Shown here piece after piece: positions 31,342 to 46,190 of a DNA stretch of 64,000 bases. The first letter of the stretch is position 1. Each line of letters begins with the position of its first letter. The DNA comes from Sphingomonas sp. (GTDB taxonomy: Bacteria > Pseudomonadota > Alphaproteobacteria > Sphingomonadales > Sphingomonadaceae). The stretch spans positions 208,807-272,806 of the forward strand of contig NZ_JAIXHL010000003.1 of NCBI RefSeq assembly GCF_030145815.1. Reading direction: 5' to 3'. The position numbers and the translations under genes were made by a program. The notes under the pieces are model-generated. The model made no database searches and was not told the DNA's origin. It worked only from the letters and a program-made list of their open reading frames with translations.

Positions 31342-31418
31342 GGGCCTGTAGCTCAATTGGTTAGAGCTGGCCGCTCATAACGGCTAGGTTGCGGGTTCAA
31401 GTCCTGCCGGGCCCACCA
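31342..31418 (+). tRNA. tRNA-Ile2 (CAU anticodon, lysidine-modified)
   Basis: A complete 77-base cloverleaf: acceptor GGGCCTG pairs with CGGGCCC, then A73 and an encoded CCA end. The anticodon loop CTCATAA carries CAT at 31376-31378. The C4-G69 and C5-G68 pairs in the acceptor stem are known TilS identity elements of the Ile2 isoacceptor. The gene therefore reads AUA after lysidine formation and is not elongator Met (identity by inference). Confidence 0.85.
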
Positions 31419-31464
31419 GCGCATTGCCTTTAGGGTCAGACCTGTATAGGCGACCCGCTCGCGT

Positions 31465-31543
<79 letters not shown>

Positions 31544-31679: not shown

Positions 31680-32036
31680 TTGTTCGCGGCGGCGGACAAG
31701 CTGCGCGGCAATACTCTGGCCAGTCAGTATCGTCGCCCGGCTCGGCGAACAAAGCGAGTGGTGACGACGGCGTTGGGGAAATACACCCCTTCCTTCCGCC
31801 AGCCGGTCGATGTTCGGGGTTTTGAGGCCGGGCTTGAGGAACCCCATCGTGTCATGGCGCAGGTCGTCGACCAGCACGAAGACGATGTTCATTGGATTGC
31901 CCTCACGCGCGCGGGCCGGCGGGGTCTGATCCTTACCAAGGCGCGGTGCGGGCTGGTTGCTCGCCTATGCCGCGGTGGCCAGCAGGACACCCACCGCAAA
32001 GGCGGCGGTGCAAAGCGTGGCGCGCGGGCGGGTCAT
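31680..32036 (-). pseudogene. Truncated, frameshifted sulfatase remnant
   Basis: The start at 32036 overlaps the FGE stop (ATGA) and encodes a signal peptide (MTRPRATLCTAAFAVG...), then an in-frame TAG at 31965-31967. The same frame continues through ASNQPAPRLGKD to the sulfatase opening NIVFVLVDDLRHDTMG. Two compensating one-base indels flank a shifted segment before the active-site motif CSPSRATILTGQ, where Cys is the formylglycine precursor. Homology ends near 31680, so most of a sulfatase of about 500 residues is gone. It is the target of the FGE gene beside it and is not functional. Confidence 0.8.
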
Positions 32037-33001
32037 GATGGCATGTCCTCCTGATTGTCTCGGATGATGCAACGAAAGCCGATATGGCTGGTCGAGCTGT
32101 CCACCGACTGCGGGTGGCGTGCGGCTGGCCGATAGCGCTGGCAGTAATTGGGGGCGCAAAGATGCGATCCGCCCTTGATCACCTTGCGGCCGATCGGGAC
32201 GTGCGGGGTGCAGGGATCGAGGCTTCCGCGCTCGCTGCCGCCGCGCGGGTTGGACGGCACGCAACAACTACCGGCAGGCTTCTGTTCGGGCTGGTGCAGC
32301 GCATACCAGTCCGCAGTCCATTCCCAGACATTGCCGATCATGTCGAACAGGCCATAGCCATTGGGCGGGTAGGTGCCGACCGGGGAGGTGCGCAGAAACC
32401 CGTCGGTCAGCAGGTTCTGATGCGGAAACGCGCCCTGCCAGAAATTGGCCAGCATCGCGCCCTGTGGCGCCAGTTCGTCGCCCCAGGCATAGTCGCTGCG
32501 ATCAAGCCCGCCGCGCGCGGCAAATTCCCACTCGGCCTCGGTCGGCAGCGCCTTGCCCGCCCAGTCGGCATAGGCCTGTGCGTCCTCATAGGCGATATGC
32601 ACGACGGGATGGTCCCACAAATCGTCCAGCGTGCTGTCCGGGCCGTGCGGATGGCGCCAGTCGGTGCCGAAGCTGAATTCCCACCAGCGCGCAAAATCGC
32701 GCAGGTCGACCGGGCCGCGCGTCGGCATGAACAGGAGCGAGCCGGGCTTGGCGAGTTCGGGGGGCATGCCGGGATAATCGGCCGGGTCCGGCGCGATTTC
32801 GGCGAGCGTGCGGTGCCCCGTCGCGTCCACGAACCTGGCGAAATCGCGGTTGGTGACGGGCGTCTCGTCGATCCAGAAGCCATCGACCCGCACCTGCCGG
32901 ACGGGCTGTTCCTCAGGGTAAAATCGGTCCGATCCCATGGCGAAGACGCCGCCCGGAATATGCCGCATGGCTTCGGTCGATGGGGCGCTGATCTCATTCA
33001 T
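32033..33001 (-). CDS. Formylglycine-generating enzyme (SUMF1 family)
   Basis: FGE oxidises the active-site Cys of sulfatases to formylglycine. The 322-residue protein has the FGE-sulfatase fold signatures (IPGGVFAMGS, LPTEAEWEFAARGG, GNVWEWTADWY) and ends with KGGSHLCAPNYCQRYRPAAR, where Cys282 and Cys287 have the spacing of the copper-binding pair Cys336/Cys341 of human FGE. The ATG at 33001 is preferred over a TTG nine codons upstream. Its only visible partner, the coupled sulfatase, is a pseudogene. Confidence 0.88.
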   Translation of the reverse strand: MNEISAPSTEAMRHIPGGVFAMGSDRFYPEEQPVRQVRVDGFWIDETPVTNRDFARFVDATGHRTLAEIAPDPADYPGMPPELAKPGSLLFMPTRGPVDLRDFARWWEFSFGTDWRHPHGPDSTLDDLWDHPVVHIAYEDAQAYADWAGKALPTEAEWEFAARGGLDRSDYAWGDELAPQGAMLANFWQGAFPHQNLLTDGFLRTSPVGTYPPNGYGLFDMIGNVWEWTADWYALHQPEQKPAGSCCVPSNPRGGSERGSLDPCTPHVPIGRKVIKGGSHLCAPNYCQRYRPAARHPQSVDSSTSHIGFRCIIRDNQEDMPS

Positions 33002-33327
33002 CGCAGGCTGGTCCGCTGTTGGTCGCAACGGTCATGCGCTGCTGAGGCGGACCTTATCACCGCAGCTGCTCCAGTCCGCAAAGGGGGATCGACGGGGCTG
33101 TCACCGATGAAGCCGTTTATCATGCGGATGCCACCAAAGCTGATCGTTTATTGCGATGTAGCGTCACCTATCGAAGCTTCGGCGATAGTCGCCCGCGTTG
33201 GGAGGCGCGATCGATAGGCCCCCAGCTTGGACGCCATAGTGGATGTCATAATGTGGAGCGCATGGTAGAGACGTGCGCACGTCCTTGCGCGGTGTCGCTG
33301 GCGGGAAGGCGCGTAACTGGAAGGTCC
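33002..33327. other. Divergent spacer between FGE and the RiPP cluster
   Basis: I see no gene or RNA here that I can support. The in-frame extension of the next gene to 33151 looks non-coding (Arg/Ser/Gly-rich). Promoters for the FGE gene and the RiPP genes must lie here, but I cannot point to clear boxes. Confidence 0.5.
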
Positions 33328-34542
33328 ATGATGTTCGCGGTCGCAGCGCAATCCCGGGTGGATGACGAAGTGCCCCTCCCCGGATTCGCGCCAGAGTTGC
33401 GGTTCGTCGTTGCGGCGGCGCGATTGGCGAGTGGCGGTGCGGCAGGGCCCACGCTGGACCGAGCTGGCGCCCAGGTACGCAATTGGGACATCGTGCATCG
33501 CGGGCTTGCGCATCATGGTCTGGTCGGTCTTGCCGTTCCCGGGCTGTTGCGCACGCGCGCGGTGCCGGCGGCGATGGCGGCGCTGTTGACGTCGGAGCAT
33601 GGCGCGCATGTCGTGGGCGTAATGCACCGGATGCGTGAGCTGGTGCGGATCGGGCGCGCGCTCGATGCGGCGGGAATCCGGCATCTGTTCATCAAGGGCA
33701 TTGCGCTGTCGGTTCAGCTGCATGCCGACCCACTTGTGCGGGGCGGGCGGGACATCGATGTGATGATCGAGCGATCGCGCCTCCGGGATGCCGAGCAAAT
33801 TCTGCGCGACTTGGACTATGAGCTGCCGATCCATGCGACCCCCGCCGATCCGGACGTAACCGAACCCGCCAAGGAAAGCGGTTGGGTGCATCGGGAGAGC
33901 CGCATCCTCGTCGAGCTGCACGATCGGTTGTGCGATAATCATGCGCTGTTGCCGTGGGATTTCGCGACATTGTGGGCGGAGCGCGAAACCGTGACGATCG
34001 GCGGGATGGCGGTGCCGACGATGGCGCGGCGGCGGCTGCCCGTCTATCTCGCGGTGCATGGCATTCGGCATGGCTGGCAGCGGATGTTGTGGCTGGTCGA
34101 TCTGGCGGCGGTGCTCGACACATCTGAAACCTGGGACGTTGCCCTCGACGATGCCGCCGCGCAGGGGCTGGAGGGCATGATGCTGCATGTCGGCTGGGCG
34201 CTGCATCACTGGCTCGGTCGGCCGGTGCCAGCCGAGATATCGGCGCGCGGGCGGCGGCGGGTCGATGTGCGGTTGCTCAACTGGCTGGTCGCACGGTTTC
34301 AGCACGGACCGGACTGGTATGAGACGCTGCCGCGCAATTCGGTGCGGCGCTTCATCGCCGGAAGCGTGTGGAGTCGGGCGATCACCTATATGATGAAGCC
34401 GTCCGGCGGGTTTTGGCGGCGTCAGCTCGCCTTCGATCTCAGCTCGCCGCAAGACCGCGCCGCATTCGCGCTACCCGATCGGCTGAACTGGCTTTATCCG
34501 CTGATCCGCCCGTTCGGCTGGGCGATCCGCCGCCTGCGTTGA
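33328..34542 (+). CDS. RiPP-cluster nucleotidyltransferase-fold protein
   Basis: The 404-residue protein belongs to the NTP_transf_5-type nucleotidyltransferases: FIKGIALSVQL (Lys123-Gly124) is followed by the metal motif GGRDIDVMIERS (Asp142, Asp144), and the C-terminal half is helical. Members beside peptide-modification genes may transfer nucleotides to peptide side chains. Starts at 33328 or 33331 both follow the Shine-Dalgarno GGAAGG. It is the first gene of the plus-strand arm and lies 16 bases before the HPr-kinase-like gene. The substrate is inferred from context. Confidence 0.8.
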   Translation: MMFAVAAQSRVDDEVPLPGFAPELRFVVAAARLASGGAAGPTLDRAGAQVRNWDIVHRGLAHHGLVGLAVPGLLRTRAVPAAMAALLTSEHGAHVVGVMHRMRELVRIGRALDAAGIRHLFIKGIALSVQLHADPLVRGGRDIDVMIERSRLRDAEQILRDLDYELPIHATPADPDVTEPAKESGWVHRESRILVELHDRLCDNHALLPWDFATLWAERETVTIGGMAVPTMARRRLPVYLAVHGIRHGWQRMLWLVDLAAVLDTSETWDVALDDAAAQGLEGMMLHVGWALHHWLGRPVPAEISARGRRRVDVRLLNWLVARFQHGPDWYETLPRNSVRRFIAGSVWSRAITYMMKPSGGFWRRQLAFDLSSPQDRAAFALPDRLNWLYPLIRPFGWAIRRLR

Positions 34543-34558
34543 TAAGCTTCGGAGCATC

Positions 34559-35536
34559 GTGACCCATTTCTACAGCTTTGGCGGCCTTCGGATCCGCTCC
34601 GCCATCGAACTCCCGAGCCTGGTCCTGGCCGACCCGGCGGATACGGGCTGGGCGGGTGAACTCGACCTGCGGGTCGAGGTCGGCGCCCCGGTCGAGCACG
34701 CCGAGGTCAGCTATGAATGGCGCAACGGGTATCGCATGCGGATCGGCGAGAGGGATGGACGCTGGCTGATCCGGTCGCGGTTCGAGGGGAGTTTCCTGAT
34801 CGACCGCGATGGGCGCGCCATGACCCTGATCGTCGACGCCTTGCCGCCCACAGTGGCAGCGATCGAGATCCTGTTGCGCCGCGTGCTGACGCGCGTGCCG
34901 ATGCTGCAGGGCGCGATTGCGATCCATGCCGCGTCGCTGGTGCAGGATGGCGGTGGCATGCTCTTGATCGGGCGATCGGGCGCAGGGAAATCGACGCTGT
35001 GCGCTGCGCTGACCGTGCGCGATCGCTGGCAGATCCTGGGCGACGATACCGCATTGCTGTGGCATCCCGACGCGCCGATGCTGGGGGCAGGGGCGAAGAG
35101 CGTGTGCCTGTGGCCGGATTCGCGCGACGGATTGGCGTTCGCCCCGAACATGGCGGTGCCGCTGGCCAGCGCGACAGGGAAGGGGCGGTCGCCGGTCGCG
35201 GCTGGTGATCCGCCGCCGTTGACGCCGCTGCGCGCACTCGTCTTCCTCGACCGCCGCGACACTGTTTCCGAGCCGCATCTGGAGCCGCTGGACATTGCCG
35301 AGTCGATGGCGCTGATCGTGCCACAGATCATCCATTTCAACCCGAGCGGCACAAGCGTCGCGGAGCGCATCCATGCCGTGTCCGGGCTGCGCAGCGTCTT
35401 GCAGGCGCGCCCGGCAGTTCGATTGGTGTATCCCAGCGATTATGCGGCATTGCCCAAGGTTGCAGCGATGCTCCGCAGGTTCCTGTCCGAGGTCGCGATT
35501 GCTTCGGCGCAGCAGTCAGCTAACGATGTCGCATGA
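34559..35536 (+). CDS. HPr-kinase/phosphorylase-like protein of the RiPP cluster
   Basis: The 325-residue protein has a Walker A loop GRSGAGKSTL at residues 138-147 and a GDDTALL acidic motif at 161-167, as in the HPr kinase/PEPCK-like fold. There is no HPr operon context. HPr-kinase homologues in lasso-peptide clusters (paeninodin type) phosphorylate the C-terminal Ser of the precursor, so it is probably a peptide kinase (family knowledge plus inference). It starts with GTG and overlaps the methyltransferase start by four bases. Confidence 0.82.
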   Translation: MTHFYSFGGLRIRSAIELPSLVLADPADTGWAGELDLRVEVGAPVEHAEVSYEWRNGYRMRIGERDGRWLIRSRFEGSFLIDRDGRAMTLIVDALPPTVAAIEILLRRVLTRVPMLQGAIAIHAASLVQDGGGMLLIGRSGAGKSTLCAALTVRDRWQILGDDTALLWHPDAPMLGAGAKSVCLWPDSRDGLAFAPNMAVPLASATGKGRSPVAAGDPPPLTPLRALVFLDRRDTVSEPHLEPLDIAESMALIVPQIIHFNPSGTSVAERIHAVSGLRSVLQARPAVRLVYPSDYAALPKVAAMLRRFLSEVAIASAQQSANDVA

Positions 35537-36588
35537 CCAACCGTATCGCGCAGCTCACCGCCTTGTTGCCCAAGGTGTCCGACGATCCCCGTGCGCTGAT
35601 CGCGATTGCGCGCCAGATGATCGCAGCCGGCGACCGGCCGCGCGCCGTTGCGCTGGCGGAACAGGTCCATGCGATGACCGGCGGCCGCGGCGAGGCCGGG
35701 GTGACCGCCGCCGAGATTTTGAGCGACGGCGTGTTCAGCTGGCACTTCGTCATTCCCCGCGACCGCGCGCGCAACGATGCGTATGAGCAGGCGTTGCTCC
35801 GCGCCATCCGACCCGGATGCCGCGTGCTGGAGATTGGGACCGGCACCGGGTTGCTGGCGATGATGGCGGCCCGTGCGGGCGCGACGGTTGTGACGTGCGA
35901 GGCCGACGCCGCCATCGCCTCGGCGGCACGCGATGTGATCGCAGCGAACGGCTATTCCGACCGCGTGACCGTGGTGAGCAAGCATTCGACGGACCTTGAT
36001 CCAACCCGCGACATGGGTGGGCTGGCCGACATTCTGGTGTCGGAGATCGTCAGCAACGACCTGCTGAGCGAAGGCGTTCTTGGCGCGCATGAGGATGCAG
36101 TTGCCCGGCTGCTTGCCCCCGATGGCGTGGTCATCCCCCCGCGCGGCACGATCCGCGTTGCGCTCGCCCGCGATCTGCGCGACCGCGCGCCGCGCCTCGG
36201 CGAAGCGAGCGGGTTCGATCTCAGCGCGTTCAACCGCCTCGCCGCGCCCAACGAGTTGGTCCGCGTCGGCATGGATCAGGTCGCGCTGTGCAGCGCGCCG
36301 GTCGATCTGTTCAGCTTCGACTTCGCTACCGCCGATCCACGCAAGCCCGAGCGCCGCGAACTCGACATTCCCTCACTCGGGGGGCGGATCGATGGTATCG
36401 TCCAGTGGATCGCATTGGAGATGGATGCCGTTGGGCGCTACGAGAATCGCCCGGAATCGGGGACGGCGTCTTGTTGGGGGGCGCTGCTGTGGCGGTTTCC
36501 CGAACCAGTCGATACGGAAAAGAGCGATACCGTCACGGTCGGCGGCGCACATGAGCGCGATCGTGTTCGGCTATGGGTATCGGATTGA
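35533..36588 (+). CDS. PRMT-like SAM-dependent methyltransferase of the RiPP cluster
   Basis: The 351-residue protein has SAM motif I VLEIGTGTGLLAMMAA (residues 98-113) and a protein-arginine-methyltransferase-type double-Glu loop, SEIVSNDLLSEG (Glu171 and Glu180, nine apart as in PRMT1). The C-terminal part is beta-rich like the PRMT barrel. It likely methylates a peptide, and both precursors have a single core Arg39. It overlaps the kinase gene by four bases (ATGA) and ends 50 bases before precursor 1. Confidence 0.82.
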   Translation: MTNRIAQLTALLPKVSDDPRALIAIARQMIAAGDRPRAVALAEQVHAMTGGRGEAGVTAAEILSDGVFSWHFVIPRDRARNDAYEQALLRAIRPGCRVLEIGTGTGLLAMMAARAGATVVTCEADAAIASAARDVIAANGYSDRVTVVSKHSTDLDPTRDMGGLADILVSEIVSNDLLSEGVLGAHEDAVARLLAPDGVVIPPRGTIRVALARDLRDRAPRLGEASGFDLSAFNRLAAPNELVRVGMDQVALCSAPVDLFSFDFATADPRKPERRELDIPSLGGRIDGIVQWIALEMDAVGRYENRPESGTASCWGALLWRFPEPVDTEKSDTVTVGGAHERDRVRLWVSD

Positions 36589-36638
36589 TTCCTGCTCGCT
36601 TGGGTGATAGTCTTAGCCCTCAATAAAAGGTGGGCATC

Positions 36639-36785
36639 ATGGATCAGCTTCCGCAGAACGAGCATACCGTCGCCCCGACGGAGGCCGAGGAATGGGTGAA
36701 GCCCGAGATCGCCAGCTTCCTTCCCGCAAAGGCAGCCGAGGGCATCGCCTATCGTCCGACCGACGGCCTCAGCAACCTGACCTGA
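36639..36785 (+). CDS. RiPP precursor peptide 1 (48 residues)
   Basis: A 48-residue precursor. Residues 1-17 form an acidic, variable leader start. Residues 18-48 (EWVKPEIASFLPAKAAEG then IAYRPTDGLSNLT) are almost identical to precursor 2. W19-V-K-P22-E-I24 resembles the YxxPxL leader motif bound by PqqD-type RREs. A core starting at Gly35 places Asp42 at position 8, which would allow a Gly1-Asp8 macrolactam with a six-residue tail. The Shine-Dalgarno AAAGGTGGG precedes the ATG. The absence of Cys makes a lanthipeptide unlikely. The exact core boundary is inference. Confidence 0.85.
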   Translation: MDQLPQNEHTVAPTEAEEWVKPEIASFLPAKAAEGIAYRPTDGLSNLT

Positions 36786-36843
36786 ACATGTTTCTGTTGT
36801 CCCTGGCGGATGACGAGCGTGAAACCCGACGCGGAGAATTATA

Positions 36844-36993
36844 ATGACCGAGCAGACGCCTCAGCCGCAGGAAATCGCATCCGAAGTGCGCGGTGAATGG
36901 GTAAAGCCCGAGATCGCCAGCTTCCTTCCTGCAAAGGCAGCCGAGGGTATTTCCTATCGCCCGACCGACGGCCTCAGCAACCTGACGCCCTGA
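36844..36993 (+). CDS. RiPP precursor peptide 2 (49 residues)
   Basis: A tandem paralogue of precursor 1, 58 bases downstream. Residues 18-48 differ only at A37S, plus an extra C-terminal Pro49. At DNA level the 31 shared codons carry seven base changes, six of them silent, so the peptide sequence is under selection. Residues 1-17 differ from precursor 1 except for the initiator Met. Shine-Dalgarno GGAG lies upstream. The core candidate is GISYRPTDGLSNLTP (residues 35-49). Confidence 0.85.
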   Translation: MTEQTPQPQEIASEVRGEWVKPEIASFLPAKAAEGISYRPTDGLSNLTP

Positions 36994-37052
36994 TCCAGGC
37001 GGCTTCCCCGTGCTCGATCGGCGCGGGGTCACCGGGATGATCCGTTGACTGA

Positions 37053-37913
37053 ATGTACCGCGTGATGACGGAGTCGGCTGGTCGCGCATCCTTGGTTGCG
37101 CCCTATGATCTGGCCTCGGCTGCTCATGACTATCCCATATGGGAGGGCCTGCCACGCCGGACGGTGTTGCTGTGCACCCACCCCCGATCGGGCAGCACCT
37201 TGCTCGGCGAAGCGCTCTACTTCGCGGGCGGGCTGGGCTGCCCGCTGGAATATTTCCATGCCGGCTTTCGCCCGTCCTTTGCGCGCCGCTGGGACGCGCC
37301 CAACTACGACAGCCTCAGCACGGCGGTGCGTCGGCATCGCACCACGTCCGACGGAACGATGGGGGTCAAGCTGTTCTGGCGTGACATTGAAGAAATCGCG
37401 CGGGACGCAGACCCCGAACTTGAGCGCTTCGCCAATATACCGCCATCCGATGTTCCCGCCGATTATTATGCAGCGCTGGCAGGTCATGTCGCGCGGCTGT
37501 TCCCCAACCCCAGCTTCATCCACCTATGGCGCGAGGACAAGTTGCGCCAGGCAGTCTCGGCGGTGCTCGCGGTCGAGACCGGACGCTGGCGATCGATCCC
37601 CGGTACGACGCAGGAGACGGCCCCTGCGACCGCGCCGTTCGATATCGAGCGGATCGAGCGCATCATGGGCTATTCGGATTTCTGTCACGGCCATTTCCGC
37701 AACCTGTTTGCAGCGATGGGTGTGACTCCGCACCGCCTGACCTATGAGGCGCTGACCGCCGATTATGCCGCGACGGTGCGCGCGCTGCTGCGCCATCTGG
37801 GCAGCACTGCCGATCCACAGACGCCGCGGATGCGACGCCAGGCGGATAGCGCGAGCGAGGCGATGGTGCTGCGCTATCTGCGCGAGCGGGCGATGCCGGT
37901 GCGGCGCGCCTAA
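37053..37913 (+). CDS. Stf0-type sulfotransferase of the RiPP cluster
   Basis: The 286-residue protein has the 5'-phosphosulfate-binding loop CTHPRSGSTLLGEAL (residues 41-55) typical of PAPS-dependent Stf0 sulfotransferases. The likely acceptor is a Tyr or Ser/Thr of the precursor; both cores have Tyr38. A second in-frame ATG exists four codons in. It lies 59 bases after precursor 2, and its TAA shares a base with the next ATG (TAATG). Confidence 0.83.
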   Translation: MYRVMTESAGRASLVAPYDLASAAHDYPIWEGLPRRTVLLCTHPRSGSTLLGEALYFAGGLGCPLEYFHAGFRPSFARRWDAPNYDSLSTAVRRHRTTSDGTMGVKLFWRDIEEIARDADPELERFANIPPSDVPADYYAALAGHVARLFPNPSFIHLWREDKLRQAVSAVLAVETGRWRSIPGTTQETAPATAPFDIERIERIMGYSDFCHGHFRNLFAAMGVTPHRLTYEALTADYAATVRALLRHLGSTADPQTPRMRRQADSASEAMVLRYLRERAMPVRRA

Positions 37914-38512
37914 TGGCTGCCCCGATCCTTCCATATCTGCGCTTCGACGCGTTTCTGGACGCGCCGACGCGTGCCGCGCTGCTCGATTGGACGCTGGCAA
38001 ATTCCGCGCGGTTCGTGCCCGCGCAGCTGATCCGTGGCGTGGTCAATCCCGATGTCCGCCGGTCACTGACGCTGCGCGACCTCGGCCCGCTGGCGGCGGT
38101 GCTCGATACCCGGCTACGCGAAGCGGCGCCGCACTGGTCGGCTAAGCTACGCGCGACGCCCTTCGTTACGAGCGAGGTGGAGTTGGAGTTAGCCGCGCAT
38201 AATGATGGCGCGCATTTCACGCTCCACACCGACACCTATGCAAGCAATCAGGTTGCACGGGGCGATCGGATGCTGAGCGCAGTCTATTATTTCCACCGCC
38301 AGCCGCGCGGGTTCGACGGGGGTGCGCTGCGCCTGCATCGTCTTGGTGCCAAGGCCGGTGACCCCGGGCTCGACATCGCGCCGGACGACAACAGCCTGGT
38401 CGTCTTCCCCTCCTGGGGGCCGCATGAGGTGATGCCGGTGCGCTGCCCGTCGGGCGACTTTGCGGATTCGCGGTTCGCCGTGAATTGCTGGATCTATCGC
38501 GCCCGGCTCTAG
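37913..38512 (+). CDS. 2-oxoglutarate/Fe(II)-dependent oxygenase of the RiPP cluster
   Basis: The 199-residue protein has a double-stranded beta-helix facial triad HxD...H: His105 and Asp107 in LHTDTY, His171 in WGPHEVMPV, and Arg187 in DSRFAVNCW as the 2-oxoglutarate anchor. It resembles the prolyl-4-hydroxylase branch. It may hydroxylate a residue of the peptide core (for example the Pro or the Asp ring residue), which is inference. It is coupled to the sulfotransferase gene by TAATG and overlaps the convergent PqqD gene by four bases. Confidence 0.85.
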   Translation: MAAPILPYLRFDAFLDAPTRAALLDWTLANSARFVPAQLIRGVVNPDVRRSLTLRDLGPLAAVLDTRLREAAPHWSAKLRATPFVTSEVELELAAHNDGAHFTLHTDTYASNQVARGDRMLSAVYYFHRQPRGFDGGALRLHRLGAKAGDPGLDIAPDDNSLVVFPSWGPHEVMPVRCPSGDFADSRFAVNCWIYRARL

Positions 38513-38802
38513 GCTGCGATTTCCAGCACGCCGCGTTCGATCAGGTCCGCGACAAACTCGGTTACATCGCTGCGGCAGGTTTCGGCATCGACCTTGTAGC
38601 TGGCCGCCATGTGGTCGGTCAGTGCGCCCAGCGTGTGCGGCTCCTCGACGAACGCCCAGATCTTGGCGGCGGTGCGGTTGAGCTGAAAGAAATAGCCCGA
38701 ATCGATGTCGAGCAGGATCGCGTCATCGGCAACATCCGCGCCGACCACCGCCGCCTTGCGTCGCAGGATCGTCGTCGCGTCGATTGTCACCGCCTGCACC
38801 AT
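38509..38802 (-). CDS. PqqD-like leader-binding protein 1
   Basis: A 97-residue RRE protein of the PqqD family: beta strands (VADDAILLDIDSGYFFQLN) and a helix (RTAAKIWAFVEE), ending in a helical region. PqqD binds precursor leaders and hands them to modifying enzymes. It is the last gene of the minus-strand set pqqD2-asnB-like-pqqD1, ten bases after the cyclase gene. Which of the two PqqD copies binds which enzyme cannot be told. Confidence 0.85.
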   Translation of the reverse strand: MVQAVTIDATTILRRKAAVVGADVADDAILLDIDSGYFFQLNRTAAKIWAFVEEPHTLGALTDHMAASYKVDAETCRSDVTEFVADLIERGVLEIAA

Positions 38803-38812
38803 GTCGTCACCC

Positions 38813-40717
38813 TTACGCTTTCAGCCCGAACGCATGCTCCAGCCACATGTCGGTGGCAAGCGTGAACCAGACCGGCCCCCATGCGCCGTCGGGGATCGGT
38901 CCTTGTCCACCGGCTTGCCGCCACGCCTCAAACGGTGCGTGCATCGCCGCGATCTTTTCCGGCACGATCCAGCCGAGCTTGACCGCAGTCAGTTCATGCA
39001 CCGGCTTTTGCCGGAGCAATTCGCCGATTGCATCGACCTGATGCGACACGAAATAGGATTTGGTGCGGCGCTGACGAATCTTCTCGGGCAATGTCCCCTT
39101 CATCGCCTCGCGCAGCAGGAATTTGCGCGTGTTGAACTTGCGCAGATGCTCGCCGCCCGCACCCATGAAGAAGTCGGTCAGCCGCCGGTCGTGCAGCGGA
39201 TGGCGCACCTCGACACCGTGATTCTCGGCAAAAGCGAGCACGCTGTCGATCATCGTGTAGCGCCGCCCGAGCGAAAAGACGCTGTAGCGCGACTGCTGGT
39301 CCATGCCGCGCAGGCCGGCGCGCGCGATCTTCTGGTGCCAGCGATCGACCAGCCCGATCCGCTCCATCCACTCGGGCCGCACCCAGTCGGGCCGGTCGAG
39401 GCGGAAGTCGAGATGCGGGGTCAGCAGCGCCTCGCGATGCTTGCGGCTGATGATCGGCATGAGGGTGCTATGCAGCGTCCGCCGCGCCTGAACATGCCAG
39501 GGCGAGTTGGGCCACAGCTCCGCGCCATGGCGGAACAGCTTGCCCCAGCGCCCGGCCATGAAGCGGTCGGGCCAGTGCGCCAGCGATCCATTGAGCCAAT
39601 CGTCGCCGCCCTCGCCGGTCCACAGCACGCGCCGCCCGTCGGACTGGAGCGCCTTGAGCACCCCGCCCATCGAATCGAGCACGTTGGGCCGCACCGGCAG
39701 CTGGTAGGAATCGGCGCACCATTGCCGCGCGACATCGGGATCGAATCGCCGCGCGCCGACGACCTCGGCGGTGATGCCGAGATGATCTTCGACCGCGCTG
39801 CTCCATTCGGTCTCGTCATGCGGCTCACCGGGAAAGCGCGCGGAGATCGCGCCGACCTGATGGTCGAGCTTGCCGGCGCGGAACAGCTCGGTCGAGCGGC
39901 AAACGATCGACGAGGAATCGAGCCCGCCCGACAGCTGCGCCGTCACCGGCCCGACGCTGCGGCTGGTTGCGATCAGCGACTGGTCGAACAGATGGTTGAA
40001 CCGCTCGATATGGTCTTCGAGCGACCGGTCGGACAGATCCTCGAACGGCCCACCATGCCATGCCCAGCGCGATATCTTGCCGTTCTCGAATGCAATTGCG
40101 CCACCCTGTGGCACGCGCTCGATTCCCGCCCAGAGTGTGTCGGTCTCAGTCACGAAGCGCGCCGACAGATATTCGGCGATTGCGCCTTCGTTGAGCTTGC
40201 GCTCGAACCCCAGCCCCAGGATCAGCGCGCGCGGCTCGCTCGCAAAGCCGAAGGTGGTGCCGTCAAACGCCCACAGAAACGGCCGCCAGCCCATTGGCGA
40301 GCGGAACAACTCGATCCGGCGCTTGCGCGGCTCCCACGCGGCGATCGCATAATCGCCCGCCAGCCGATGGACGAAATTGCGCCCCTCGCGCTCGAACAGC
40401 TTGAGCGCGATCAGCCCATCCGGGGCGTCGGCCAGTCGTTCGCCATCGGTTCCGAACAGCGCGAGAAGCTCGCCACGATTGTCGAGCCGGCCGTCGAGTA
40501 GCAGCGCAATCTGGGACTCTGCGCCGATAAAGGGCTGGGTCTCGCCGCGCGCTTGCGGCGTCGTCGCATGGGCGAAGCGGACAAAGCCTGCGTGGTCGTC
40601 ATGCCAGCTCTGGACCCCGTCTAATCCCCGGCTGAACGTCGATCCGGCGACCCGGTCCAGTAGTTCCTGCCCGATCGGTCGACCGTCGGTGAAGACGGCA
40701 CCGGCAATCCCGCTCAT
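38813..40717 (-). CDS. Asparagine-synthetase-like cyclase with mutated glutaminase
   Basis: A 634-residue AsnB/LasC-like protein. The glutaminase half begins MSGIAGAVF: Ser2 replaces the nucleophile Cys2 of AsnB, so glutamine hydrolysis is impossible. The synthetase half keeps the ATP-binding PP-loop QLSGGLDSSSIVC (near residue 260). Lasso-peptide cyclases share exactly this combination and form an isopeptide ring by adenylating Asp/Glu. It is flanked at 9-10 bases on both sides by PqqD genes. Macrolactam formation on the precursors is the leading inference. Confidence 0.85.
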   Translation of the reverse strand: MSGIAGAVFTDGRPIGQELLDRVAGSTFSRGLDGVQSWHDDHAGFVRFAHATTPQARGETQPFIGAESQIALLLDGRLDNRGELLALFGTDGERLADAPDGLIALKLFEREGRNFVHRLAGDYAIAAWEPRKRRIELFRSPMGWRPFLWAFDGTTFGFASEPRALILGLGFERKLNEGAIAEYLSARFVTETDTLWAGIERVPQGGAIAFENGKISRWAWHGGPFEDLSDRSLEDHIERFNHLFDQSLIATSRSVGPVTAQLSGGLDSSSIVCRSTELFRAGKLDHQVGAISARFPGEPHDETEWSSAVEDHLGITAEVVGARRFDPDVARQWCADSYQLPVRPNVLDSMGGVLKALQSDGRRVLWTGEGGDDWLNGSLAHWPDRFMAGRWGKLFRHGAELWPNSPWHVQARRTLHSTLMPIISRKHREALLTPHLDFRLDRPDWVRPEWMERIGLVDRWHQKIARAGLRGMDQQSRYSVFSLGRRYTMIDSVLAFAENHGVEVRHPLHDRRLTDFFMGAGGEHLRKFNTRKFLLREAMKGTLPEKIRQRRTKSYFVSHQVDAIGELLRQKPVHELTAVKLGWIVPEKIAAMHAPFEAWRQAGGQGPIPDGAWGPVWFTLATDMWLEHAFGLKA

Positions 40718-40726
40718 GCCACAGCC

Positions 40727-40984
40727 TTACGCATCGATCAGCAGCCCAAGCTGGAGCGCGTCGGTGATGAATGCATCGACATCGGCCCGGATCGCATCGA
40801 CGGCAATGCCATGCCGCGCCGCCAGGTCCGTCGCAATCTGCGCGACTGGTGTTTCCGCCGCGATGGCAGTCCAGATCGCCGCCGCCGACGGGTTCAACAC
40901 ATGATATTGACCGTCGCGCGCATCGTAAATGGCGAGTTCGCCCGCGACGGGGGGCCAGGACAGTTCGGAAGCGGGTCGGATCAT
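40727..40984 (-). CDS. PqqD-like leader-binding protein 2
   Basis: The 85-residue PqqD-family protein ELAIYDARDGQYHVLNPSAAAIW shares the fold of pqqD1 but not close sequence. The ATG at 40984 is preferred over a longer frame. It is nine bases upstream of the asparagine-synthetase-like gene, so it is probably the first gene of that operon and may serve a different enzyme from PqqD1. Confidence 0.82.
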   Translation of the reverse strand: MIRPASELSWPPVAGELAIYDARDGQYHVLNPSAAAIWTAIAAETPVAQIATDLAARHGIAVDAIRADVDAFITDALQLGLLIDA

Positions 40985-41079
40985 GCGACTTGCTCGCACG
41001 ACTAAGCCGCCCGCTTCAAGTGCTTCCGCTACAGAGCCGACTGAGTCACAGTTTGGTCTGGCAGGGAGGTGCAACGGAC

Positions 41080-42389
41080 ATGGCGAGAGGTGAAGACGGC
41101 CCGACCGACCTGTGCCTGGCGGTTCCGCCCTTCGCATCGGTCAGCTTTCCCCAGCTCGGCCCCGCCGTGCTCAAGGCGGCGTGTGCGCAACGCGGGATCG
41201 CGACCCGGATCATCCATGGCAACCTCGCACTCGTCGCACGGATCGGGCTCGATGCCTATGAGGCGGTCGAAGGGACGGCGATGCGCGCGATGGTGGCCGA
41301 CCATCTCTTCCGCGACTATGCCTATCCCCCTGAAATCGTCGCAGAGCTGCCCGCGCCGCCGCCGCTGACCGCCGATGACCAGCGCGTGTTCGACGCTGCC
41401 GCGCCCGCAATCGAACCGATGATCGCCGTGCGCGTCACCTGCCCGGCTATGTCGAGAAGGCCGATGAGCTGAAGGCAAAGGGCGTGGACGAGATCAACAT
41501 CATGCCGCGCTCCTATCTGACCGAGCTGCTCCCCGATCTTGCCGAGCGCGAGCCGAAGTTGAGCCTGTTCTACGAAGTGAAATCGAACCTGACCCGTGCC
41601 GAGGTCGAGACGATGGCGCGCGGCGGCGTCGCGATGATCCAGCCGGGGATCGAATCTTTATCGACTCCGGTGCTCAAGCTGATGCGCAAGGGCGTGTCGG
41701 CGCACCAGAATATCGCGCTGCTGCGTGACTGTGCGGCGACGAAGATCGGTGTCATCTGGAACATTATCTATGGCTTTCCGGGCGAAGCCGCCGCCGATTA
41801 CGCGGCGATGGCAAAGCTGATTCCGTTGCTCTCCCATCTCGACGCGCCCAATGGGCCGCACCGCATCGTCATCGACCGGTTCAGCCCGCTGTATCGCGGG
41901 CATGATGCCAATGGCATCGGCGCGGTCACGCCCGTGCCCGGCTATCGGTCGCTCTACCCACGCTCGATCGACCCCGCCGACATCGCCTATCATTTCGAGG
42001 GCGACTATGCGACCGAACTGCTCGACGATCCCGCGTTGCTCGGCCGACTGAACGCTGCAGTCGCGGCGTGGCGCACGATCGCGCGCGGCACGCCGCCTCC
42101 CGTGCTAGAGCTGTTCGAGCGGGATGGTGTTGCAGTCGTGCTCGACACCCGCCCCGTGGCGTTGCGCCCGATGACCCCGCTTACCCCGGGGCAGCGCGAC
42201 CTGCTCATCGCGCTCGACCGGCCCCGCACGCGCGACGCCATCGCGCCGGACCAGTGCGCCGACGCCGACTGGCTGGTCAGCCGTGGGTTCGTGATCGACT
42301 ATGAGGACAGATTGGTCGGCATCGTCGTCCGTCCGGCCCAGGGCGCGGTCGCGCAGCCCGTCCGTCAGGCATCGGGCGCGTTCGCATAG
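41080..42389 (+). pseudogene. Broken B12-binding radical SAM maturase (copy 1)
   Basis: The N-terminal piece (41080 to about 41428) matches the B12-binding domain of the intact copy (LCLxVPPFAxVxxP...RG). The C-terminal piece (about 41496-42389) matches its radical SAM half from NIMPRSYLTELLPDL onward. About 190 codons, including the CX7CX2C cluster motif, are missing and replaced by a 66-base peroxiredoxin-like scar that also shifts frame; the N-terminal frame stops at 41472. It cannot bind a [4Fe-4S] cluster. A GGGAGGT Shine-Dalgarno still precedes the N-terminal ATG. It ends tail to tail with the intact copy, overlapping by 25 bases. Confidence 0.85.
41430..41495 (+). other. Peroxiredoxin-derived scar in the broken radical SAM gene
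   Basis: The frame that runs into the C-terminal radical SAM piece reads A-RHLPGYVEKADELKAKG-VDEI, which matches the segment after the peroxidatic Cys of Prx5-type peroxiredoxins (HLPGFxExAxALKAKGV). It is only about 22 codons long and has no upstream peroxiredoxin sequence, so it looks like filler DNA captured at a deletion junction. Confidence 0.7.
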
Positions 42390-44149
42390 GCGGGTGGCTC
42401 GGTTATGTCTTGAGCCTGACGCGTGACGATGCTCAGCAATAGCCCTTCATGTGCAAGGATGTAGTGGCGCGCGATCAGCTCGGCGATCACTGCGGGGTCC
42501 ACATCGAGATCATCTGCCGCGTGCGGGCGCTCCAGTAAGCGCAACGCTCTGTTCCATTCGGGGGGCAGCGAAATCTGCGCTTGTGTCGCAATGCGGCGCG
42601 TGTCGATCACGACCGGCGCTCCGTCCGCACCCACGATCCGCAGCTGTGGGCTCGCACCGATCGCCCATTGCAAGCGCCATAGGCCGATCGCGCGGCCCAT
42701 AGCGAGGCGGGTGTCGGCATCGTTGATCAGCGCGGTCGTGTAGTTTCCGCGGAAATGATAGGCGATGGCATCCAGCCGCGCGTGGCGCGGAAACAGCCCG
42801 CGATAGGCGGCAATCGGCGCGATCCCGGCAATTCCGAATGCCTCGGGCGTATTATGATAGGGGCTGAATCGATCGACGATCAGCGGACTGAAATCATTGG
42901 GCGGCTCAAGATGTTCGAGCGCCGGGATCAACGCAGCGACGGGGGCGTAATGCTCCACCTGCTCGCCTGGAAAGCCGTAGAGATAGTTCCACACCACTCC
43001 GATCCCGAGCGAGCGGCAATCGCGGAGCAGGGCGATGTTCTGATGCGCTGACACGCCCTTGCGCATCAGCTTCAGAACCGGTGACGATAGCGACTCGATG
43101 CCGGGCTGAATCTTTTCGATGCCGGCGCGCGCCATCAGCGCCAGCTGGTCGTATTTCAGGTTCGCCTTCACCTCGTAGAACAAGGTGGGTGGCTCTCCCC
43201 GCGCCGCCAGCGCCGGGAGCAGATCGGTCAGATAGCGCAGCGGCATGATGTTGTCGGCAACGGCAAATCGACCGATGCTCCACTTTGCCTCAAGCCCGTC
43301 CAGCTCCGCCAGTGCGGTCGCGCCGGGCTTTTCGCGGAACATCATGGTCGCGCCGTTGAGCCCGCAAAAGGTGCAGTGATTCTTCGCGCCCCACCAGCAC
43401 CCGCGTGACAGTTCGACCGGCAGTGCTTCGGGCAGTGATGCAGGAAGCGCGTCGCCCAGACGATCCAGATCGGCGAAATAGTCGCTGAAATCGGGTGCGG
43501 GGCTGCATCGCATATCGGTCAGCGGTGGGCAGTGGACGATGCGCGGCAGATCGGCGCCAGGGTCTGCCAGCAGGTGCGCGCAGAAATCGGGAAAGGCGAT
43601 GTCCGCCTCCCCCGAGAAGAAATGATCGATCCACGGGAAGATGTCGGCCAGCGCCTCGCCCATTGGCGACGCAGCGTTCGGACCACCGAGCACAATCCGG
43701 GTGTCGGGTGCTTCGTCCTTTATCCGCTGCGCGATCGCCGATGCGGCCAGGGTCTGCTGAAAGCTGGAGGTGATGCCGACGATACGGGGCGCGAGCGATC
43801 GGATGCGCGTGCACACATCGTCGAGCAGTGGGGCAATGGCCGGAGCCACCGCGTCGTGGGTCGACCGAAGCCGGGGCGGCCACGCGGTCGGGGCATCGAA
43901 AGCAACAGCCGGATCGGCACGATAGGCGTGGGGAAGGAACAACCGCTCGCCCAGCAGTGAAGCGACATTGCTCGTTGCAATCTCGCCATAGCAGCCATGC
44001 CCGACGCGTGCGGCAAGCATGAGGTTGGCATGCACCACGGTCACCCGCAGCCCGCGCGCGCGGCACGCCGCAGCGAGGATCGCGACCCCCAATGTCGGCG
44101 TCTCGACCTGTGCGAAGGGTGGCACGACGAGGCACAGGTCGATCGACAT
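42365..44149 (-). CDS. B12-binding radical SAM RiPP maturase (intact copy)
   Basis: The 594-residue protein has an N-terminal cobalamin-binding-like domain (DLCLVVPPFAQVETPTLG, residues 4-21; LGGPNAASPMG near 154-164) and a radical SAM domain with SRGCWWGAKNHCTFCGLNG, Cys251, Cys259 and Cys262 (CX7CX2C), the spacing of RiPP-maturation B12 radical SAM enzymes (rSAM_ocin-type). Expected chemistry is C-methylation or related modification of the precursor. The ATG at 44149 is preferred over a TTG at 44185. It overlaps the broken copy by 25 bases at the 3' end. Confidence 0.85.
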   Translation of the reverse strand: MSIDLCLVVPPFAQVETPTLGVAILAAACRARGLRVTVVHANLMLAARVGHGCYGEIATSNVASLLGERLFLPHAYRADPAVAFDAPTAWPPRLRSTHDAVAPAIAPLLDDVCTRIRSLAPRIVGITSSFQQTLAASAIAQRIKDEAPDTRIVLGGPNAASPMGEALADIFPWIDHFFSGEADIAFPDFCAHLLADPGADLPRIVHCPPLTDMRCSPAPDFSDYFADLDRLGDALPASLPEALPVELSRGCWWGAKNHCTFCGLNGATMMFREKPGATALAELDGLEAKWSIGRFAVADNIMPLRYLTDLLPALAARGEPPTLFYEVKANLKYDQLALMARAGIEKIQPGIESLSSPVLKLMRKGVSAHQNIALLRDCRSLGIGVVWNYLYGFPGEQVEHYAPVAALIPALEHLEPPNDFSPLIVDRFSPYHNTPEAFGIAGIAPIAAYRGLFPRHARLDAIAYHFRGNYTTALINDADTRLAMGRAIGLWRLQWAIGASPQLRIVGADGAPVVIDTRRIATQAQISLPPEWNRALRLLERPHAADDLDVDPAVIAELIARHYILAHEGLLLSIVTRQAQDITEPPAYANAPDA

Positions 44150-44239: not shown

Positions 44240-45418
44240 CTAAGTCTTCCGGCTCAACTCGCGCATGGCATCGTCCAGCCCCGCCAGCGTCAGCGGGTAC
44301 ATGCGGTCGTTCATCAGCTCGCGCATGATCCGCACCGATTGCGAATAGCCCCATTGCTCCTCGGGGATCGGATTGAGCCAGACGGTTGCGGGATAAGTGT
44401 TGGTCACCCGCTGCATCCATGCAGCGCCCGCCTCTTCATTGAAGTGCTCGACCGATCCGCCGGGGTGGCTGATTTCATAGGGTGACATTGATGCGTCCCC
44501 GACGAAGATCACCTTATAATCATGGCCGAATTTGTGGAGCACGTCCCACGTGGGAGTTCGCTCCTGAAAGCGGCGGCGATTGTCCTTCCAAACGCCTTCG
44601 TAGAGGCAATTGTGAAAGTAGAAGAATTCGAGATTCTTGAACTCGGCGGTCGCGGCGCTGAACAATTCCTCGCACAGCTTGACCCACGGGTCCATCGATC
44701 CGCCGACGTCGAGGAAGAGCAGCAATTTGACCGCATTGTGCCGCTCGGGCCGCATGCGGATGTCGAGCCAGCCCTGCCGCGCGGTGCCGTCGATCGTCCC
44801 CTCGATATCCAGTTCGTCCGCCGCGCCTTCGCGGGCAAAGCGGCGCAGGCGGCGCATCGCAACCTTGATGTTGCGGGTGCCCAGTTCGCGCGTCGAGTCG
44901 AGGTTCTTGAACTCGCGGCCTTCCCAGACCTTCAGCGCGCGCTTGTGGACGCTCTCGCCGCCGATGCGCACGCCTTCGGGGTTATATCCCGAATTGCCAT
45001 AGGGGGAGGTGCCGCCGGTCCCGACCCATTTGTTGCCGCCCTGATGGCGTTCATGCTGCTCCTCGAGCCGTTTCTTGAGCGTCTCCATAATCTCTTCCCA
45101 CGAGCCGAGCGACTTGATCGCCTCCATCTCCTCGGGGGTCAGATATTTCTCGGCGATCGCCTTGAGCCAGTCCTCCGGTATCTCTGCGGTCTGGACGCCA
45201 TAGGTCGAGGCGATGCCCTTGAAGACCTTCGCGAACACCTGGTCGAAGCGGTCGAGCAGGCCTTCGTCCTTCACGAAGGTCGCGCGGGCGAGATAGTAGA
45301 AGGCTTCGGGCGTGCGATCGATCACGTCGCGGTCGAGCGCTTCGAGGAGCACGAGATGCTCCTTCATGCTGGCGGGGATGCCTGCGGCGCGGAGCTCATC
45401 GACGAAGGAGAAGAACAT
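44240..45418 (-). CDS. CoxE-like VWA domain protein
   Basis: The 392-residue protein has a CoxE/VWA domain. The MIDAS motif is present as LFLDVGGSMD (about residues 234-243), where Ser of DxSxS is replaced by Gly. The N-terminal half is helical with the charged EEIMETLKKRLEEQHERHQ segment. CoxE-like proteins usually work with a MoxR AAA+ ATPase in metalloenzyme or substrate insertion; no MoxR gene is in the window. The start at 45418 is chosen because the longer frame upstream is Arg-rich and unlike protein. Confidence 0.85.
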   Translation of the reverse strand: MFFSFVDELRAAGIPASMKEHLVLLEALDRDVIDRTPEAFYYLARATFVKDEGLLDRFDQVFAKVFKGIASTYGVQTAEIPEDWLKAIAEKYLTPEEMEAIKSLGSWEEIMETLKKRLEEQHERHQGGNKWVGTGGTSPYGNSGYNPEGVRIGGESVHKRALKVWEGREFKNLDSTRELGTRNIKVAMRRLRRFAREGAADELDIEGTIDGTARQGWLDIRMRPERHNAVKLLLFLDVGGSMDPWVKLCEELFSAATAEFKNLEFFYFHNCLYEGVWKDNRRRFQERTPTWDVLHKFGHDYKVIFVGDASMSPYEISHPGGSVEHFNEEAGAAWMQRVTNTYPATVWLNPIPEEQWGYSQSVRIMRELMNDRMYPLTLAGLDDAMRELSRKT

Positions 45419-45456
45419 GGGGGGAGTGTGGCGCGGGCAAACGCGCGCGTCCAGCC

Positions 45457-46035
45457 TCAGCGCGCGTAGGCGTCGATCAGCGATCCGACATAGTCGGGGC
45501 GTTCGCCGGTCAGCTCGCGGGCGGGGCGGGCGCGTGCGATCTTGGCGCCGCCGACGGGGCGGCCATAGATGAAGCCGTGGACGGGGTAGGAGCGCCCGCC
45601 GAGCCCGCCATTGTCGCGATACCAGACCTTCACTTGCGTCCAGTCGCCATCGGGGGAGACGTCGAACAGGGTGACGTCCTGTTCCACCTGACCGCGCTTG
45701 CCGCCGATGCGCGACCAGTTGGCGTGGGTGACCATGATCGTGCGCGGTTCGATCACCCGGCTGACGACCGCGACATGGCCGAGCTGCAGCGATTCCGATT
45801 TCGCGAAGGCCACGACCGCGCCGACCTCCGGCGTCTGTCCGCGCTGATATCTGCTCGCGGCCTGGCTCCACCAGGTCCAGGCATCGCCCCAGATCTGGAT
45901 GCCCGACGCGGCGCGCGCAAACGGCACGCATTCACCGACATAATTGAGGATCGATGCCGAAGCGGGCGCCGCGACCAGTGCCGCGGCGCCAAGGATCGAC
46001 AGCATGATCCGGCGGGGGGTCCGGTTCGACTGCAT
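45457..46035 (-). CDS. Secreted CHAP-domain amidase/endopeptidase
   Basis: The 192-residue protein has a signal peptide (RRIMLSILGAAALVAAPASAS) and a CHAP domain with the catalytic Cys36 in YVGECVPFAR and His87 in QLGHVAVVSR, followed by an Asn/His-containing THANWSR region. CHAP enzymes cut peptidoglycan cross-links or act in wall remodelling. It lies on the strand opposite guaA. A longer frame from 46197 is less likely because the signal peptide would be displaced. Confidence 0.85.
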   Translation of the reverse strand: MQSNRTPRRIMLSILGAAALVAAPASASILNYVGECVPFARAASGIQIWGDAWTWWSQAASRYQRGQTPEVGAVVAFAKSESLQLGHVAVVSRVIEPRTIMVTHANWSRIGGKRGQVEQDVTLFDVSPDGDWTQVKVWYRDNGGLGGRSYPVHGFIYGRPVGGAKIARARPARELTGERPDYVGSLIDAYAR

Positions 46036-46190
46036 ATGGGAAGGATAGCTGCGCCGCGCTTCCGAATGCTTTGCCGGTGCGGTTAAGGGGGCGGTGACCA
46101 TGTCGGCACGCGGAATCCGCTGGCGCCGAATTGGTTCCCCCGGTGGGGCGATGCCTTTACACCCGCCGCGTCGCTGCCTATCGGCTCGCC

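Follow-up and report, generated by a model that had tools for sequence, protein, structure and literature searches.

The window analysed here is a 64,000-nucleotide stretch of a Sphingomonas draft genome (4.66 Mb), and it carries at positions 33328-44149 a gene cluster for a ribosomally synthesized and post-translationally modified peptide (RiPP). We read this as a conserved cluster that probably turns two near-identical precursors, A1 and A2, into a lasso-type peptide of 14-15 residues with a likely amide between Gly1 and Asp8, and on the sequence comparisons given below we put the probability of this reading at about 0.7. The lasso class is proposed because of the leader motif, the spacing of Gly1 and Asp8, the cyclase, and the B2 leader peptidase that some relatives encode inside the cluster. 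The filing is provisional because threading is a prediction and B2 lies outside the window's cluster. A first-pass annotation had listed within 10.8 kb the two precursors, an NTP_transf_5 nucleotidyltransferase-like protein (NTP5), an HPr-kinase-like protein (HprK), a protein arginine methyltransferase (PRMT)-like enzyme, an Stf0 sulfotransferase, a 2-oxoglutarate (2OG) oxygenase, two PqqD-like proteins, an Asn-synthetase-like cyclase and a B12 radical S-adenosylmethionine (SAM) enzyme. All eleven were confirmed by open reading frame (ORF) and family-model searches (Table 1). The macrocyclic, multiply tailored RiPP proposed there is well supported by sequence; its lasso class had not been recognised.

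Precursors, cyclase and conservation of the cluster

The leaders of A1 and A2 differ N-terminally, and the two precursors have in common the stretch WVKPEIASFLPAKAAEGI(A/S)YRPTDGLSNLT. A profile built from 15 relatives recovered 385 homologues out of 991 candidates. The precursor statistics refer to 120 of these 385 (leaving 265 outside the counts), 119 of which were placed in one register through a [WYF]xxP search; P0071 (leader WVKPEM, core identical) was dropped, and P0046, two residues shorter and out of register, was retained. Among these listed matches the leader motif is WxxPx[IVL], with Trp(-16) and [IVL](-11) each present in 119 of 119, and the core follows the pattern G1-I-S-Y-R5-P6-T-D8-G-I-S-N-L-T14. 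Gly1 occurs in 116 and Asp8 in 118 of the 119, which is the lasso-type arrangement of residue 1 with Asp/Glu at 7-9. The other ring residues are Tyr4 (113/119), Arg5 (107/119) and Pro6 (92/119), position 14 is Thr, Ser or Cys in 118 cases (Thr/Ser in 110, Cys in 8), and in 118 the core has 14 or 15 residues. The distant relatives L027 and L028, in the identical register, read ...DTEG or ...DTRG with Thr(-2), Gly1, Asp8 and Ser at 14, which as far as sequence can tell is the ordinary lasso pattern; their precursors adjoin HprK and the cyclase, and in L028 also B2. Other loci vary, with Ser(-2) in L024, Ala(-2) in L098 and Ala1 or Asn1 in L021-L023. Cores similar to those of the window are accompanied by an in-cluster B2 in L025 (GISYRPSDGLSNLTA) and L026 (GISYRIGDGISNLT). 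It may be noted that lasso clusters with Ile(-2) follow the same YxxPxL, Gly1 and Asp8 logic and that Ile/Val(-2) is reported in Sphingomonadales (PMC10368454), while the accessible part of that paper makes no mention of Ala(-2).

For the cyclase, the lasso cyclase model NF033535 is the closest among the NCBIfam models. Ser2 replaces the Cys2 of the glutaminase, as expected of a lasso cyclase, and is invariant in 10 of 10 aligned sequences, and the SGGLDSS motif is present. The two PF05402 proteins together with the WxxPxI / YxxPxL-type motif supply the lasso B1 and leader pairing.

At 1e-60 the cyclase was matched in 4 of the 397 genomes of the family and, at 22 places, in 15 of the 295 genomes of the genus. 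The genus loci, L024 (Roseiarcaceae), L025 (Novosphingobium) and L028 (another family genome) give 25 distinct loci. L099 coincides with L020 and was not counted separately; L014/G239 was excluded for its weak precursor match (0.00893) and missing cyclase match; L018, L021, L106 and L143 lie close to contig ends. At L104 the precursor was not found nearby, so the residue counts cover 24 loci. A plasmid location was rejected, with zero cyclase matches at 1e-40 in 72,556 plasmid records. The order NTP5-HprK-PRMT-precursor-Stf0-2OG-PqqD-cyclase-PqqD is identical in five loci (the window and L016-L019), and L020 and L097 carry the same set rearranged, with NTP5 inverted and a single PqqD; given this recurrent order, the grouping of the genes is not a matter of chance. 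The ratio of nonsynonymous to synonymous substitution rates (dN/dS) against Sphingomonas R647 (L016) is 0.178 for NTP5, 0.152 for HprK, 0.116 for PRMT, 0.081 for the precursor (A1), 0.165 for Stf0, 0.140 for 2OG, 0.105 for PqqD1, 0.095 for the cyclase and 0.137 for PqqD2. These values (0.08-0.18) denote purifying selection, and the cluster is therefore maintained. None of the flanking proteins at 30282-31322, 32033-33028, 44240-45931 and 46131-47747 was matched by tblastn in any of the 25 fetched stretches, at 1e-8 or at 1e-5, while the cyclase, run at 1e-5 as a positive control, was matched in every one; the clusters therefore occupy different places.

Table 1. Features of the cluster in the window, with predicted functions and best supporting matches
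Feature	Coordinates	Strand	Evidence
NTP_transf_5 nucleotidyltransferase-like protein (NTP5)	33328..34542	+	PF14907 1.6e-41; GGRDID motif
HPr-kinase-like peptide kinase (HprK), predicted	34559..35536	+	TIGR04352 6.9e-11, below cut-off; GTG start; GxSGAGKS P-loop
PRMT7-like methyltransferase	35533..36588	+	PDB PRMT7 6.1e-31; SEIVSNDLLSE loop
Precursor A1, 48 aa	36639..36785	+	predicted core GIAYRPTDGLSNLT
Precursor A2, 49 aa	36844..36993	+	predicted core GISYRPTDGLSNLTP; homologue in G172 at 3.0e-12
Stf0-type sulfotransferase	37053..37913	+	PF09037 1e-28; RSGST motif
2OG-Fe(II) oxygenase (2OG), prolyl-4-hydroxylase-like	37913..38512	+	PF13640 8.1e-18
PqqD-like recognition protein 1	38509..38802	-	PF05402 2.8e-18; NF033536 lasso PqqD 6.8e-15, below cut-off
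Asn-synthetase-like macrolactam synthetase (lasso C-like)	38813..40717	-	NF033535 5.1e-68, below cut-off; Ser2; SGGLDSS motif
PqqD-like recognition protein 2	40727..40984	-	PF05402 3.5e-15 (search made with start 40987; ATG read at 40984)
Broken B12 radical SAM gene	41080..42389	+	C-terminal piece TIGR03975 2.2e-79, below cut-off
Intact B12 radical SAM C-methyltransferase-like protein	42365..44149	-	TIGR03975 3.3e-161, above cut-off; CWWGAKNHCTFC

No transporter was found among the cluster proteins scanned against family models. Just upstream of the cluster lies a formylglycine-generating-enzyme-like protein (32033-33028, - strand; PF03781, 3.1e-80), and about 1.8 kb ahead of the cluster are genes for tRNA-Met and tRNA-Pro (31342-31541).

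Tailoring genes and their predicted target residues

The tailoring genes were counted by searching the 25 loci with profiles of the window proteins. Eleven loci carry PRMT (window, L016-L020, L025, L026, L097, L101, L105). These are all 11 loci with a ring Arg, as opposed to none of the 13 without; PRMT is also absent at L104. The Arg is at position 5 in ten of these loci and at position 6 in L105. The best PDB match of the enzyme is PRMT7 (4c4a), in two stretches of which the better covers query residues 77-302. A SAM motif is present, and an SE-x8-E stretch, which we take to be the paired-Glu loop of arginine methyltransferases, is retained in every aligned copy. We predict from these features that the PRMT7-like enzyme methylates ring Arg5. 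The 2OG gene is found in 10 loci, and Pro6 in 10 of these 10; its profile matched in the PDB 4iw3 (1.3e-7, titled merely putative uncharacterized protein) and 6t8m, the prolyl 4-hydroxylase subunit alpha (7.4e-6). Pro6 is its predicted target of hydroxylation. The two traits are separable, since L103 (Lys5-Pro6) has 2OG without PRMT and L105 (Arg6, no Pro) has PRMT without 2OG. Likewise, L026 (Arg5, Ile6) has PRMT and no 2OG of the window type.

Of the 25 loci, 20 have HprK, 13 have NTP5 and 18 have Stf0. The HprK motif SGAGKST (S140-T146) is invariant in 11 of 11 aligned sequences, except for the neighbours of its first two letters. An HPr-type kinase with a P-loop and a C-terminal Ser/Thr occur together here, as in phosphorylated or phosphoglycosylated lasso clusters. 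Against the PDB, the HprK profile gave mostly chance P-loop matches, with the Hpr(Ser) kinase 3tqf at 0.004. HPr-type kinases are reported to phosphorylate the C-terminal Ser of lasso peptides and PsmN to put a hexose on that phosphate (PMC8498205, PMC9266682), whereas BsfK phosphorylates Ser3 instead (PMC10368454). Thr14 is the better guess for the kinase target because A1 of the window has Ala3. As for Stf0, Tyr4 was ruled out as its sole target, the gene being present with Tyr-less cores (L021-L023, L102, L106-L108); the only Phe4 locus, L103, is without Stf0 and also without HprK and NTP5. Membrane acyltransferases of the Acyl_transf_3 family adjoin four clusters (L019 6658-7761, L025 14149-15261, L026 10909-12798 and L103 6697-7848), which suggests optional O-acylation.

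A twelfth feature, overlooked in the first-pass annotation, is the broken radical SAM copy, which has lost about 500 bases including the stretch of the cysteine motif and lies in pieces in two reading frames. R647 has two of these clusters (L016, L017), and the two pieces that can be read share 73-74% identity with the intact orthologue in L017. The intact copy of the window is only 45-50% identical to the cluster orthologues, and is therefore apparently either a second copy that has diverged or a later arrival. It alone of the two has the features of a B12 radical SAM enzyme, with a TIGR03975 score of 537.8 (cut-off 281.85) and the Cys cluster, and it had no match in the PDB at 0.001.

Leader peptidase and alternative readings

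Several observations, given here and with the alternatives that follow, weigh against the lasso-type reading. The cyclase, HprK and PqqD matches all fall below the NCBIfam cut-offs. Residue (-2) among the listed matches is Ala in 113 of 119 and Thr, the usual lasso residue, in 4 of 119. Because the [WYF]xxP search set the register, the leader Pro is invariant by design. Cys14 (8/119) and an extra residue beyond position 14 (49/119 of the matches listed) do not fit simply with C-terminal phosphorylation. Loci that are related do not count as independent samples. Pro6 is found without 2OG at L021, L022 and L107, ring Pro4 without 2OG at L106, and L026 carries a different 2OG protein. B2 (PF13471) is found neither among the cluster genes nor on the window's contig. 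Five PF13471 matches lie elsewhere in the window's genome, and each adjoins an Asn-synthase-like ORF (L056-L060). With the profile of the cluster cyclase, these ORFs score 77 (L056), 56 (L057), 40 (L058) and 31 (L059) bits, and the one at L060 matches NF033535 at 3.4e-80. A solitary orphan B2 was thus ruled out, and the window's cluster would need to borrow from another system. In favour of a B2 that acts in trans, a profile of 11 B2 proteins, mostly stand-alone, matched at 1e-12 all 15 of the cyclase-positive genus genomes and 50 of the 280 that are cyclase-negative (65 of 295 in total), a co-occurrence that is partly circular because 8 of the 11 profile rows come from cyclase-positive genus genomes. 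Seven cyclase-positive genomes that are not represented in the profile also match B2 (G413, G507, G577, G579, G155, G630, G636), the G155 protein being 97.5% identical to a profile row. As background, PF13471 occurs in some form in 187 of 397 family genomes.

A cluster without its own B2 would also suit a RiPP whose macrolactam is not threaded, the Asn-synthetase-like enzyme making a plain branched ring or some other amide and an unrelated protease cutting the leader after Glu(-1). Only five of the 25 loci have an in-cluster B2 (L025, L026, L028, L102, L108) and the fetched stretch of the other 20 has none; Ala(-2) agrees with this alternative, as does the six-residue tail G-L-S-N-L-T, which has no bulky plugs and which we take to be short for threading. 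Yet similar cores occur with an in-cluster B2 in L025 and L026, relatives show Thr(-2), Gly1 and Asp8, the cyclase is nearest to the lasso cyclase model, and none of the ten cluster proteins scanned matches a protease family. We therefore consider a non-threaded product unlikely.

The lasso-type reading with a B2 acting in trans finds its best argument in split gene sets that complement each other. The precursor-bearing genus clusters L101, L103 and L106 have no HprK, NTP5 or B2 in the fetched stretch, and partner loci in the same genomes (L102, L143 and L142, respectively) have all three. L102 is a fuller cluster. L142 7070-10190 and L143 2-3171, from the two Sphingomonas genomes G630 and G636, are NTP5-B2-HprK-PqqD cassettes placed before the same two neighbour ORFs, and neither a cyclase match nor a precursor was seen with them (the whole contig was scanned for L142; L143 starts at a contig end). 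A literature search gave nothing relevant on split or trans B2 among its first ten results. Islands with B2, PqqD, two weakly kinase-like genes and an Asn-synthase-like gene are also present in the window's genome (L057 9219-14784) and in R647 (L061 4096-9710); a TPR-2OG oxygenase was read in the latter, and small proteins near both islands are presumably phage-tail-collar proteins.

A second alternative concerns the methyltransferase, which may modify a residue other than the ring Arg, the co-occurrence with Arg5 then being due to shared ancestry. A second lasso-like family (L165, L166, L169) also carries PRMT, both with an Arg-less core (L169, GKYATVTEF...) and with an Arg core (L166, GKYRTVTEF...). 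Outside these loci PRMT-like proteins are common, with matches at 1e-20 in 58 of 295 genus genomes as opposed to 15 of 295 for the cyclase at 1e-60. The latter counts also bear on the statement in the first-pass annotation that its reading would fail if precursor homologues were absent elsewhere and the tailoring genes occurred together without them: the former does not hold, given the 385 proteins, and a PRMT-like gene does occur away from the cyclase. Against a different target stand L103, where Lys5 goes with loss of PRMT while 2OG is kept, and L105, where PRMT is kept with Arg at position 6, as well as PRMT7 as the best PDB match and the paired-Glu loop kept in all aligned copies. A non-Arg target is hence improbable in our judgement, and ring Arg5 is kept as the predicted one.

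As for gene content, L165, L166 and L169 have PRMT, kinase, PqqD and cyclase with no B2 match in the stretch, L166 has in addition a Sulfotransfer_1 protein, and the cores are GKYRTVTEFTSTTGPAS (L166) and GKYATVTEFTTTTGPGS (L169). When 15 PRMT neighbourhoods were selected from 73 places, five (L168, L170, L171, L173, L176) were found to adjoin a gene like 46131-47747 of the window, which we take to be a GMP synthase, as its relatives. The window's cluster ends about 2 kb from this gene. The PRMT-like genes beside it are possibly a housekeeping relative.

Decay of a lasso cluster that has lost B2 and its native radical SAM gene, leaving the remainder unproductive, is very improbable. B2 is missing, and the radical SAM orthologue is broken in this cluster, left as remnants in L016 and stop-interrupted in L101; against decay stand dN/dS of 0.08-0.18 for nine genes relative to L016, itself without an in-cluster B2, a nine-gene order retained in five loci, and a duplicated precursor with a nearly intact core.

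Proposed pathway and comparison with known systems

In the pathway that we propose, one or both PqqD-like proteins would bind W(-16)xxP(-13)x[IVL](-11) and deliver the linear precursor to the tailoring enzymes. While still linear, the precursor would be methylated at Arg5 by the PRMT7-like enzyme and hydroxylated at Pro6 by the prolyl-hydroxylase-like enzyme, HprK and NTP5 would phosphorylate and extend the C-terminal Thr14, Stf0 would sulfate Tyr4 or a Ser/Thr, and the B12 radical SAM enzyme may C-methylate some carbon. Cleavage after Glu(-1) would then fall to a B2 peptidase from another part of the genome, and the Asn-synthetase-like enzyme would adenylate Asp8 and close the ring. A bolder version, rather doubtful but worth stating, is a split mix-and-match pathway in which B2 (in some genomes also kinase and nucleotidyltransferase) would be supplied to the B2-less lasso clusters of sphingomonads in trans, from the NTP5-B2-HprK-PqqD cassettes or from a sister cluster. 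No earlier lasso peptide would then combine, as this product would, a methylarginine made by a PRMT, a hydroxyproline in the ring, sulfate, and a C-terminus whose phospho-nucleotidyl or phospho-glycosyl group acts as steric stopper where bulky side chains usually do. If true, PRMT-like peptidyl-arginine methylation and ring proline hydroxylation would be added to lasso chemistry. It would also follow that leader removal can be uncoupled from the cluster, and mining rules requiring a nearby B2 would miss such clusters. Natural swaps of residue and gene in L103, L105 and L026 already point to the target residues, so that the predictions are individually testable.

The claim that no known system has the whole set held in the open-access literature searched, where no lasso paper was found to join sulfotransferase, PRMT, prolyl hydroxylase and radical SAM, most subscription papers lying outside the search. 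The composition, called apparently undescribed in the first-pass annotation, is so as a whole combination and not as regards kinase, nucleotidyltransferase and sulfotransferase beside lasso genes, which are in print (PMC8498205). The parts are of known kinds; what is new is how they are combined, together with Ala(-2) and the split B2, with the lasso kind provisional. Among known families, PRMT7 (PDB 4c4a, 3wst, 4m36) resembles the window enzyme in sequence and in the paired-Glu loop, the window enzyme differing as a 351-residue bacterial form in a RiPP cluster. The intact radical SAM copy scores within the TIGR03975 RiPP C-methyltransferases and differs by its adjoining lasso-type cyclase. 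A PqqD-type B1 is presumably common to the window and to clusters of the paeninodin/pseudomycoidin type.

The latter type (PadeK, PsmK/PsmN) also resembles the window in its HPr-type kinase, nucleotidyltransferase-type protein, Asn-synthetase-like cyclase and C-terminal hydroxyl residue, and a sulfotransferase gene is noted near some of its clusters (PMC8498205, PMC9266682). It has B2 and a D transporter, whereas the window has no B2 and two PqqD proteins, and of the two the window alone has PRMT-like, prolyl-hydroxylase-like and B12 radical SAM genes. Canucin A offers in CanE a 2OG hydroxylase that acts on the linear lasso precursor, as we propose for the window, except that CanE targets a C-terminal Asp and the window enzyme is predicted to target Pro; in citrulassin the tailoring peptidylarginine deiminase (PAD) lies far from the cluster, similar to the proposed remote B2, the remote gene there being a deiminase and not a leader peptidase (PMC8498205/PMC9266682). 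The bsf type (BsfA/B1/B2/K, PMC10368454), which is reported from Sphingomonadales as well, agrees with the window in the Gly1-Asp8 ring assignment, the kinase, the YxxPxL-like motif and the exception to Thr(-2). It has Ile/Val(-2) and phospho-Ser3 as opposed to the Ala(-2) of the window's family, and in the window the motif lies one residue closer to the core and B2 is outside the cluster.

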